Shown: in pieces, positions 35,513 to 38,513 of the stretch
Numbering within the stretch: the stretch's first letter is position 1
How the letters are laid out: the number at the start of each line of letters is the position of its first letter
From: Arsukibacterium perlucidum DSM 18276
GTDB taxonomy: Bacteria > Pseudomonadota > Gammaproteobacteria > Enterobacterales > Alteromonadaceae
NCBI RefSeq assembly: GCF_000382165.1
Contig: NZ_KB907703.1
Location: 1-64,000 of the forward strand
Direction: 5' to 3'
DNA: 64,000 bases
Made by a program: the position numbers and the translations under genes
Notes under the pieces: generated by a model
Databases searched by the model: none
What the model was told of the DNA's origin: nothing
What the model saw: only the letters and a program-made list of their open reading frames with translations

Positions 35513-36154
35513 CTACAACTGAGCATCGCTTTGTTGCTCTGGTGCTGCCAGGGCAAAGCCGGCCAACTGCTGGCAATGATGATATATCCGGCTGATGGTA
35601 GGATATTCCAGGGTGTCGAGCTTAAAGCGCAATGCATTGTACATTTGCGGCACCAGACACAAATCGGCCAGAGTGATATTGTCACCATAGCAAAACTCGC
35701 CGGCAGTCTTTTGCAGACGCTGCTCCAGGGCGTTAAAGCCAGTATGTAGCCAGTGGTAGATCCACTCGGTTTTCTGATCGTCATTTAAACGCAGTGGCCC
35801 GGTCAAATACTGTAATACTCTAAGATTGTTCAACGGATGAATATCGCAGGCAATATCCAAAGCCAGCGAGCGCACCTGTGCTTTAGCCTCAGGATCTTCT
35901 GGCAGCAGCGCTGGCTCAGGATAAACCTCATCAAGATATTCAATAATGGCCAGCGACTGGTTCAGGCTAAACTCACCATCAACATAAGTCGGCACCAGCT
36001 GATTTGGATTCAGTTGCTGATACTCAGCACTATGTTGCTGGCCACCGTCTTTTAGCAGGTGTACCGGTATCGTTTCAAAACTAAGTTGTTTTAAATTCAG
36101 GGCGATACGCACCCGATAGGCGGCGGATGAGCGCCAGTAGCTATAGAGTTTCAT
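35513..36154 (-). CDS. maiA: Maleylacetoacetate isomerase
   Basis: 213 residues from the ATG at 36154. A zeta-class glutathione S-transferase with the signature SYWRSSAAYRVRIALNLK, which holds the Ser-Ser-Cys-like active-site stretch (here SSAAYR), and QLNPNQLVPTY and LNQSLAIIEYLDE. It converts maleylacetoacetate to fumarylacetoacetate in homogentisate breakdown. Operon partners hppD, hmgA and fah lie upstream; a palindromic element separates it from fah. Confidence 0.94.
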   Translation of the reverse strand: MKLYSYWRSSAAYRVRIALNLKQLSFETIPVHLLKDGGQQHSAEYQQLNPNQLVPTYVDGEFSLNQSLAIIEYLDEVYPEPALLPEDPEAKAQVRSLALDIACDIHPLNNLRVLQYLTGPLRLNDDQKTEWIYHWLHTGFNALEQRLQKTAGEFCYGDNITLADLCLVPQMYNALRFKLDTLEYPTISRIYHHCQQLAGFALAAPEQQSDAQL

Positions 36155-36222
36155 CCTGTAACACCTGCTCAATTATTGGACAAAAAGAATCACCGCTTGG
36201 CAAAGGAGGTGAAAGCACGTAT

Positions 36223-36310
36223 GTACTTTTTTCTGCGACCGTTGCAGCCCTGGACGGGCGGAAACGAGCCCCCAGGGATGGGTTTACGGCGTGTTGCAGA
36301 AAAAATGTAC
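36223..36310. repeat. Large imperfect palindrome between fah and maiA
   Basis: Outer arms GTACTTTTTTCTGC (36223–36236) and GCAGAAAAAATGTAC (36296–36310) are complementary with one extra base. The inside holds a 10-bp stem with a two-base bulge, CCCTGGACGGGC (36248–36259) against GCCCCCAGGG (36268–36277), loop GGAAACGA. Its size, nested symmetry and position in an operon gap resemble dispersed intergenic palindromes. Confidence 0.65.
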
Positions 36311-36335
36311 GGAGTGTTTGCACCGGACCAGCTAA

Positions 36336-37355
36336 TTACTTCGCCTTATATTGCACCACTTGCTGGTCGATAGCACCAAAAATACTCTGGCCATCGCTAT
36401 CCAGCATTTCCATTTTAATGGTATCACCAAATTGCATAAAAGAGGTGCCGGGTTTGCCATCACGAATGGTTTCAATCATCCGGATCTCGGCGATACAGCT
36501 GTAACCTACGCCACCTTCGTTAATGGCAGTACCATACTCGGTGCCCTGCTTATTTGATACGGTACCTGAACCAATTACCGCGCCGGCACCCAGCTTGCGG
36601 GTTCTGGCGGCATGGGCTATCAACTGGCCAAAGTTAAAGGTCATATCGATACCGGCATTGGGTTTACCAAAAGGTTTACCATTATAAGTCGATAATAACG
36701 GTAAATGCAGCCGGCCATCCTGCCACTTATCACCAAGCTCATCCGGGGTAACGGCAACCGGGCTGAAGCTGGAAGCAGGTTTAGACTGGAAAAAGCCAAA
36801 GCCCTTTGCCAGTTCGTTTGGAATTAAACCGCGCAGTGACACGTCATTAACCAGCATAATAAGCCGTATTTTATCTAGCGCCTGCTCCGGGCTTACTGCC
36901 ATTGGCACGTCGTCGGTGATCACCGCCACTTCACCTTCAAAGTCGATACCATGATCAGTGCTAATAGCCTCAATCGGATCACGCGGGCCAATAAAGTCAT
37001 CAGAGCCACCCTGATACATCAACGGATCGGTCCAGAAGCTTGGCGGCATCTCAGAGTTACGCGCTTTGCGCACCAATTCAACATGATTTACATAAGCACT
37101 GCCATCTGCCCATTGGTACGCCCGTGGTAAGGGTGACTCGCACTGTGCCTGGTCAAACGCCATTTCGCCATCCAGCTTACCGGCATTAAGCGCCTGATAC
37201 ACCTGTTGCGCTTTCGCTGCCAGGCCTGCCCAGTTATCCAGCAGTTGTTGCATGGTGCCGGCGATCTCTCTAATCGCGATACAACGGCTTAAATCACGAC
37301 TTACCACCACTAACTGGCCGTCGCGGGTATTATTTTTTAAACTTGCTAACTTCAT
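36336..37355 (-). CDS. fah: Fumarylacetoacetate hydrolase family protein
   Basis: 339 residues. It splits fumarylacetoacetate to fumarate and acetoacetate, the last step of tyrosine breakdown. The catalytic domain shows DFEGEVAVITDDVP, NDVSLRGLIP, SKPASSFSPVAVTPDELG, and GSGTVSNKQGTEYGTAINEGGVGYS, with metal-binding Glu and Asp. It sits 24 bases after hmgA; together with hppD and maiA it completes the pathway. Confidence 0.93.
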   Translation of the reverse strand: MKLASLKNNTRDGQLVVVSRDLSRCIAIREIAGTMQQLLDNWAGLAAKAQQVYQALNAGKLDGEMAFDQAQCESPLPRAYQWADGSAYVNHVELVRKARNSEMPPSFWTDPLMYQGGSDDFIGPRDPIEAISTDHGIDFEGEVAVITDDVPMAVSPEQALDKIRLIMLVNDVSLRGLIPNELAKGFGFFQSKPASSFSPVAVTPDELGDKWQDGRLHLPLLSTYNGKPFGKPNAGIDMTFNFGQLIAHAARTRKLGAGAVIGSGTVSNKQGTEYGTAINEGGVGYSCIAEIRMIETIRDGKPGTSFMQFGDTIKMEMLDSDGQSIFGAIDQQVVQYKAK

Positions 37356-37379: not shown

Positions 37380-38513
37380 CTACGGCTTGGTTTTCCAGCT
37401 GTTGACATAATCCGGGTTTTCGGTGGCCAGGGCAGCTTCGCCCACTTCCAGTGCATCGCGGGTGTCCAGCATTACCGCCACTTCGTCGGTAAACTTCTTT
37501 TTATACTCGCGTCCGGCGGCAAAGGCTTTCGGATGTGGGCCATGGGTAAAACCGGCCGGATGAAAGGTTACCATGCCTTTTTCAATATTGTCGCGGCTGA
37601 AGAAATCACCGGCATGGTAAAACAGCACTTCATCGTAATCATCATTGTTATGATAAAACGGCACTTTTAATGCACCAGGATCACTCTCAATTGGCCGCGG
37701 CACAAAGGTACACACCACAAAGCGCTGCGCCACAAAAGTAGTATGAGCAGACGGCGGTAAATGATACCGATGGCTCATTAATGGCCGGATATCACGCCAG
37801 TTAATCCGCATTACTGCTAAGTCACCGTGCCAGCCAATTGCATCCAGCGGGTTATAGGGGTAAGTAATTACTGACACCTTGCCGTGGCGTTTTACTTCAA
37901 CCTGCCAACTGTCTTCACTGTATTGCGCTTTAAAAGCGTCATTAATTTTTGGCGTGTCGAGCATGGCCGGGTCAAAAATGGCGTGATTGCCCACCAGGCC
38001 CTTTTCCGGTAGCTGATAGCTGTCATTAGTGGCTTCAATCAGCAGAATAAACATCGGCTCATTCGGCACTAAACGCCACATGGTTGAGCGTGGGATCACA
38101 ATATAGTCACCGTCACGTACGCTCAAATGGCCAAAATCACAATAAAGCTCAGCACTGCCCTCATGAATAAACAGCAGCTCATCGCCATCAGCATTACGCG
38201 CCAGCTTGCTCATACTGTCTTTTAAACGCCAGGTCCGCATTTTACAGTGGCTGTTAAACAGTAGATCAGGCACCGCCCACGGCGATTGCGCACTATCCAG
38301 CTCAATCTGGTTAAAGTTGAACAATTGAGGCCTGAGCGGCCCCTGCCAGTCACTCCAGCCAGTTGGGGCATGAGTATGATGGAAGTGCGTTGCCGGGCCA
38401 AAAAAGCCACTACGGCCGGTTTCCCGCTCATATATTGCCTGCTCCGGAAAATCAGCATGAGCCTGGCGTGATACATCACCTTCCTTTAAGGGAAAAGATG
38501 CCCATTTACGCAT
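37380..38513 (-). CDS. hmgA: Homogentisate 1,2-dioxygenase
   Basis: 377 residues, a cupin-type ring-cleaving dioxygenase. HEGSAELYCDFGHLSVRDGDYIVIPRSTMWRL is the first cupin motif; EVLFYHAGDFFSRDNIEKGMVTFHPAGFTHGPHP supplies the iron-binding His and Glu. It is shorter than the ~430–445-residue Pseudomonas and human enzymes, as in the short Shewanella-type form. It overlaps the end of hppD by 8 bases. Confidence 0.92.
   Translation of the reverse strand: MRKWASFPLKEGDVSRQAHADFPEQAIYERETGRSGFFGPATHFHHTHAPTGWSDWQGPLRPQLFNFNQIELDSAQSPWAVPDLLFNSHCKMRTWRLKDSMSKLARNADGDELLFIHEGSAELYCDFGHLSVRDGDYIVIPRSTMWRLVPNEPMFILLIEATNDSYQLPEKGLVGNHAIFDPAMLDTPKINDAFKAQYSEDSWQVEVKRHGKVSVITYPYNPLDAIGWHGDLAVMRINWRDIRPLMSHRYHLPPSAHTTFVAQRFVVCTFVPRPIESDPGALKVPFYHNNDDYDEVLFYHAGDFFSRDNIEKGMVTFHPAGFTHGPHPKAFAAGREYKKKFTDEVAVMLDTRDALEVGEAALATENPDYVNSWKTKP

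Follow-up and report, generated by a model that had tools for sequence, protein, structure and literature searches.

A dispersed palindrome between fah and maiA of Arsukibacterium perlucidum is probably a copy of a YPAL-type miniature element

Introduction

The YPAL palindromes insert past stop codons. They have been described in Yersinia and Erwinia carotovora, in two length classes, as elements that measure about 168 (and 130) bp and possess distal arms (PMC2267715), and the 168-base repeat RU-2 of Y. pestis has been equated with them (PMC2759123). Direct repeats of 3 to 26 bp at their ends and empty sites have been reported, together with targets located at or adjoining regions of dyad symmetry and with the suggestion that the elements might affect the stability of the upstream transcript (PMC2229807). 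Most Yersinia genomes contain from 37 to 144 copies and Y. ruckeri 2 (PMC2847712). The REP/BIME repeats are also dispersed extragenic palindromes with compensatory changes, and the RAYT genes associated with them are described as always flanked by two REPs (PMC2817692).

Two Rfam entries are of interest for comparison, Ysr224 (RF02770), which is filed as one Yersinia sRNA, and TwoAYGGAY (RF01731), filed as a cis-regulatory RNA, in which an outer stem closes two hairpins with AYGGAY loops. In the open-access literature we found no paper that joins YPAL with either of them, and PMC4383904 draws no link between CsrA and such repeats.

Here we describe a palindrome found in a window of 64,000 nucleotides of the genome of A. 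perlucidum (the whole stretch of DNA that was analysed). Judging from its sequence and from that of its relatives, it is probably a copy of a miniature palindromic element of the YPAL type, belonging to a non-coding family present in many gammaproteobacteria.

Results and Discussion

The palindrome and its operon

The 181 bases that separate fah (36336..37355, minus strand; Pfam PF01557 and PF18288) from maiA (35513..36154, minus strand, ATG at 36154; TIGR01262, above the NCBIfam cut-off) contain a single feature of this kind, an imperfect inverted repeat of 88 bases at 36223-36310, with the outer stem starting 25 bases beyond the fah stop codon. A preliminary description of the window had reported a nested palindrome of about this size, with arms around a GC-rich bulged stem, in a gap much wider than the others of the gene set (about 25 bases or less). 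All of this was confirmed: the arms are GTACTTTTTTCTGC and GCAGAAAAAATGTAC, hmgA and fah are separated by 24 bp, hpd and hmgA overlap by 8 bp, and the region 36215-36320 folded as RNA reaches -51 kcal/mol, well beyond its shuffles (mean -31.2, sd 3.7; z -5.3; 0/200 as low). The long stem also forms on the minus strand, that of the operon, when the whole gap is folded (z -2.8, 1/200 shuffles as low). The identities of hpd (TIGR01263) and tyrR (NF008085) are above the NCBIfam cut-offs, and the hmgA call rests on a partial HgmA_N match; this hmgA-like gene (37380-38513 of the window) scored 78.7 bits with the NCBIfam hmgA model, against a cut-off of 510.75 bits, and is a divergent homogentisate dioxygenase.

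The whole element, in its short form, occupies positions 36215..36317 and has its GGA loops on the plus strand, antisense to the operon. The two covariance models used in this work matched it at G000:C3:36220-36313 (R1) and G000:C3:36219-36314 (R2, the same match as 2204-2299 of locus L038). The outer stem is made of a 5' arm of type A, GTACTTTTTTCTGC (36223..36236, plus strand), backed by outer-stem covariation, and a 3' arm, GCAGAAAAAATGTAC (36296..36310, plus strand), which has one bulged extra T. At the junction there are two further plus-strand hairpins. Hairpin 1 (36247..36259) reads GCCC-TGGAC-GGGC, with the GGA in a five-base loop devoid of a leading A, and hairpin 2 (36268..36290) is composed, in this order, of GCC, CCC, the hexaloop AGGGAT (36274-36279), GGG, the bulge TTTAC (36283-36287) and GGC. 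The distal flanks (within 36203..36325) prolong the stem weakly and are not conserved. In the lowest-energy fold of the window copy the CCCTGG of hairpin 1 pairs with the CCAGGG of hairpin 2, which counts against the two-hairpin form; the latter, as proposed for this copy, rests on its relatives.

The distal flanks also contain AAAGGAGGTG, a stretch similar to a Shine-Dalgarno sequence that is followed by an ATG (36222), both noted in the preliminary description. They are indeed found on the plus strand and open a frame of 50 codons, but the frame is not kept in relatives. In seven loci with the element in the same orientation it spans 50, 21, 50, 31, 31, 31 and 31 codons, with the Shine-Dalgarno-like run in 3/7. 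A small peptide encoded from this ATG was rejected because of this lack of conservation, and AAAGGAGGTG looks like incidental stem sequence. An intrinsic terminator was also rejected, since a simple consensus scan (blind to hairpins with long loops) gave no match at the element.

Dispersion and conserved fold

When 106 bases of the element were compared by BLAST with the genome from which they come, 32 pieces appeared at E up to 10, several of them full copies with differing outer stems. Some copies were split into two pieces because a long form exists, with about 75 extra bases and more hairpins in the middle of the element; short forms measure about 100 bp and long forms about 170 bp. The covariance model R1, made from 11 copies of this genome, gave at least 24 matches in it at E 0.001, and in the 31 genomes of the genus (this one included) from at least 7 to at least 63 matches per genome, with a median of 24. 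R1 matches were present in at least 31 of the 148 order genomes sampled and R2 matches in at least 47 of the 274 class genomes sampled, the own genome being included in both sets. All these figures are minima, since scoring was limited to 128, 26 or 14 candidates per genome (for genus, order and class, respectively). The training copies of both models had GGA loops, so that copies of this kind are recovered more readily. A pattern for the conserved 3' part found at least 118 stretches in the genomes of GTDB species; among the 80 listed are representatives of Xanthomonas, Stenotrophomonas, Pseudomonas, Halopseudomonas, Marinobacter, Microbulbifer, Cellvibrio, Shewanella, Alteromonas, Alcanivorax, Sodalis and Rheinheimera. 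Carriage by plasmids or phages was rejected, as a blastn search with the 106 bases found nothing at E 0.01 in the plasmid or the phage collection.

The preliminary description had considered a dispersed REP/MITE-like element, proposing to look for further copies and to compare the fah-maiA spacing in relatives, and had named a single conserved copy per genome as the finding that would speak against it. The many copies per genome exclude the latter, and the clean absence of the element from six of 19 fah-maiA gaps of the genus (see below) agrees with dispersion.

The arrangement of the copies is varied. At one locus (G015:C8:2664-3009) three tandem copies follow one another every 121 bases, and inverted pairs of copies 190-344 bases apart, similar to BIMEs, appear in several genera (L123, L131, L165, L179, L190 and L191). 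The additional hairpins of the long form include one with the loop ATGGAT (L019, L017, L020, L013/L016), and orthologous sites may hold either form (for example, short in L038 and long in L039).

The copies follow a common plan. An outer stem, almost free in sequence, is followed by an inner stem and by a junction with hairpins 1 and 2, each having a GGA in its loop. The near-constant letters are GAGCC and TTYACGGCGTG. The same fold recurs, among the loci listed, in Xanthomonas, Stenotrophomonas, Pseudomonas, Marinobacter, Shewanella and Sodalis. In 15 copies from the own genome, 13 of the 14 outer-stem pairs had changed on both sides; this comparison concerns the outer helices only, the inner hairpins being off register there (24-25% paired). 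Two larger alignments were fitted to the models, which leans them towards structure. The first (A4) draws on 43 loci of the genus and the order, which yielded 50 matches (49 distinct); 96% of its cells were paired (32-46% when slid), and 26/32 pairs were changed on both sides in the 49 distinct rows. The second (A5) derives from the 119 matches given by R2 in the 80 listed loci; in its 117 distinct rows 29/32 pairs were changed on both sides, and 94% of the cells were paired versus 37-50% with a slid partner. It must be kept in mind that template-switch correction can also produce complementary changes in DNA palindromes, with no need for selection on the structure.

The stems vary, while the GGA of the loops is retained. 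The GGA of loop 1 is found in 48/50, 116/117 and 84/86 rows of A4, A5 and a further alignment, A6 (A4 and A6 share rows), and that of loop 2 in 50/50 (A4) and 86/86 (A6). Loop 2 follows the form A-N-GGA-N in 49/50 rows of A4 and in 86/86 of A6, and loop 1 is the five-base TGGAC in the window copy and in many copies of the genus. A5 is uninformative about loop 2 and TTYACGGCGTGT because its search pattern contains both.

To describe the surroundings of the copies we have used 194 of them, that is, the 229 obtained by merging A4, A5 and A6 less the six orthologous stretches of contig C28 (L235-L240). After dropping 30 located in called ORFs of more than 150 codons and 18 at locus ends, 146 could be placed, 92 in tandem gaps, 42 in convergent and 12 in divergent ones (genes were called with a crude longest-ORF caller). 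Divergent gaps are avoided (Fisher p 1.9e-8) in comparison with the other gaps of at least 60 bp in the same loci, which is an approximate control. Most copies lie shortly after a stop codon, the median distance between the upstream stop and the model match being 44 bases in tandem gaps, and the element shows no preferred orientation to the genes (48 sense vs 44 antisense, p 0.75).

Relationship with YPAL, Ysr224 and TwoAYGGAY

We have filed the element as YPAL-type because the published letters of RU-2 (YPAL) align to the same core. As given in PMC2759123, RU-2 has the two-hairpin GGA core and TTTACGGCGT, and aligns with the window copy, with those of Sodalis and with further ones (a letter alignment, as opposed to a covariance model score). 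The features shared are the two GGA hairpins, GAGCC, TTTACGGCGT, the many dispersed intergenic copies and the existence of two length classes. There are also differences: in the present genus there is a short form of around 100 bp and a long one enlarged by additional inner hairpins, the outer stems differ in sequence from those of YPAL, and the distal arms of Yersinia were found in Sodalis copies but not in the window copy.

With Rfam, the window copy gave no match up to E 1 (TwoAYGGAY included), and a long-form copy gave, up to E 10, only matches at the level of chance (Ysr224 13.7 bits, RsmY 11.3 and ZNRD1-AS1_2 9.9). Among 18 of the 80 class loci that were scanned whole, one match reached the gathering score. 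This was Ysr224 on a Sodalis copy (82.9 bits against a cut-off of 70), at the same place as the element and on the strand opposite to the GGA loops. In the own genome the best Ysr224 match had 32.2 bits, below the cut-off of 70, and in none of the 274 class genomes was the gathering score exceeded. Matches below the cut-off appeared in 27/274 of them, some of them coinciding with R2 hits, on the other strand (e.g. G362:C74:16597-16700).

TwoAYGGAY has a similar architecture and similar junction letters. The GGA strand of the Sodalis copy aligns to it below the cut-off (21.5 vs 43 bits, E 0.34), R2 matched four TwoAYGGAY loci poorly (at best 14.6 bits, E 0.058), and in the own genome TwoAYGGAY gave no match at E 0.001, nor was its gathering score of 43 bits reached. 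In five sampled gammaproteobacterial genomes (G417, G334, G444, G202 and G263) TwoAYGGAY itself behaves as a dispersed repeat, with at least nine matches in each, sometimes in inverted pairs about 200 bases apart.

Chromosomal integrons were another candidate, suggested by the gene-sized spacing of the copies on C28. In attC sites the conserved letters are at the ends. We have set them aside because the conserved letters of the present element are in its middle and because the genes around the C28 copies look, by eye, like operons of leucine and valine catabolism.

Mobility of the element

We infer that the element spreads as a non-autonomous mobile element, the folded strand of which would be recognised by a mobilising machinery. 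The element could be conceived as a REP/BIME, with a RAYT (Y1 HuH) transposase moving it in hairpin form. In favour of this explanation are the covarying stems of these dispersed intergenic palindromes, the occurrence of some of them in inverted pairs, and the two Y1_Tnp genes of the own genome. However, the 6.0 and 5.8 kb around these genes contain no convincing copy, the best match (18.8 bits, E 0.0028) being a hairpin of 39 bases and low G+C that is too short for the core, and the arrangement of a RAYT gene flanked by two inverted copies was not found at either of them. Besides, four of the 31 genus genomes lack any Y1_Tnp hit and nevertheless contain at least 44, 19, 49 and 27 copies, and across the 31 the number of copies does not rise with that of Y1_Tnp genes (Spearman -0.25, p 0.17). 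The element also has a much larger structured core than REP/BIME (a GTAG-type head was sought by eye only). A RAYT origin thus seems very improbable, and the term REP used in the preliminary description is unsupported in this sense.

A covariance model gave a match between maiA and fah at 12 of 24 maiA loci from the own and related genomes. In the genus, 13 of 19 fah-maiA gaps (own included) have the element, seven in the orientation of the window (L038, L039, L041, L045, L046, L047 and L050) and six reversed, five of the latter according to the model (L040, L042, L048, L052 and L053) and one, a degraded copy in L054 that is absent from the model report, by eye only. Six gaps are devoid of it (L043, L044, L049, L051, L055 and L056). 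By eye, long forms occupy L039, L040, L052 and L054. A tree of maiA and part of fah, with 8/16 inner branches well supported, requires at least three changes of orientation among the 13 occupied loci and at least three of presence or absence.

A similar picture is provided by contig C28, where copies are found in five gaps and the orientation varies at four of them among seven species (paired copies were oriented by eye). The two orientations are distributed 3 vs 3 at scoA-HMGL (one species empty), 3 vs 2 at ECH-MCCb (two empty), 5 vs 2 at mmsA-ACAD and 3 vs 4 at ACAD-ECH; the mmsB-SDR gap is empty in three of the seven. The five gaps (L033, C28:28000-47900) lie among genes that resemble, by eye, those of leucine and valine catabolism, and the window copy lies in tyrosine catabolism.

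The simplest reading of the reversals is that the element flips in place through its arms. Fresh insertion into the same gap may also account for them, since the bases just outside the element differ too. At ECH-MCCb, the empty site of G005 has CGCGGTTGCTGCGT once, and in G009 and G007 copies of it, differing at 2 of 14 bases, are found at both ends of the insert. These would look like a worn target-site duplication, but the apparently empty site could also be a deletion between short repeats, which would look the same, and the left CGCGGTTGCTGCGT copy is similar to the distal arm present in other copies of the element (GCTGCTGCG), which counts against the insertion reading. Such direct repeats (14 bp with 2 mismatches) were found at this one site only.

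The same set of loci bears on the possibility that the palindrome is a local regulatory structure, an attenuator or a processing site, that evolved between fah and maiA. Its presence in 13 of the 19 genus loci would be in keeping with that. Against it are the many copies elsewhere, the six gaps without it, its reversal between close species and the absence of a simple terminator. We regard such a local origin as excluded for practical purposes; as an origin it is refuted, and it survives only as a secondary role of an inserted element.

In this operon the element would be transcribed as part of the hpd-hmgA-fah-maiA mRNA, and its outer stem would give a strong hairpin whichever strand is read. 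Lying shortly after the end of fah, such a hairpin would either be cleaved by an RNase or protect the message upstream of it against 3' exonucleases. We infer that an orientation-independent hairpin in the mRNA is the likeliest local effect; that it lowers maiA relative to fah is conceivable, if somewhat doubtful.

The conserved GGA loops

A pair of GGA hairpins could bind a CsrA/RsmA dimer, so that the element would control the neighbouring mRNA or act as a sponge when transcribed. Such a role is compatible with mobility. Loop 2 fits the ANGGAX hexaloop, the high-affinity form for CsrA/RsmE (PMC4005645), the GGA of loop 1 is kept while the stems change, and the architecture resembles that of TwoAYGGAY, for which CsrA binding has been proposed (PMC4333381) and to which the Sodalis copy can be aligned, as seen above, below the cut-off. 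But the orientation of the copies to the genes is random and differs between species at orthologous sites, so that control of host genes cannot explain the conserved loops. In the window copy, loop 1 (TGGAC) is not ANGGAX, and both GGA stretches are paired in the lowest-energy fold, a type of occlusion described as weakening binding the most (PMC4005645). CsrA control of fah-maiA is not predicted, because loop 1 is unfit and the GGA loops are on the strand antisense to the operon, nor is CsrA binding at this site, because the operon mRNA has the complementary loops. The RsmY match of the long-form copy (E 1) is at the level of chance. All in all, we consider a function as a CsrA/RsmA-binding element rather unlikely. 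As antisense copies retain the loops just as well, it is more likely that they serve the element itself, either in its propagation or through its own transcript, than a host gene.

Taken one step further, YPAL, Ysr224, TwoAYGGAY and the present repeats might be one old mobile family with a constant pair of GGA loops of the CsrA/RsmE type, which would use or titrate CsrA through its own transcript and be switched locally by reversal. We put this forward as an unlikely and speculative scenario. If it were true, each copy transcribed in the GGA orientation would add CsrA-binding sites, and reversal in place would act as a local on/off switch.

Concluding remarks

These comparisons probably link a repeat known mainly from Yersinia with a family whose defined fold occurs in many gammaproteobacteria. 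They also show that a locus listed by Rfam as an sRNA, Ysr224, has its match on the other strand of a dispersed element. The orthologous sites at which the element is present, absent or reversed form a set in which the effects of the hairpin on operon mRNA could be measured. The element also raises the question of why a mobile repeat, as this one appears to be, would keep two GGA loops whichever way it faces the genes of its host.
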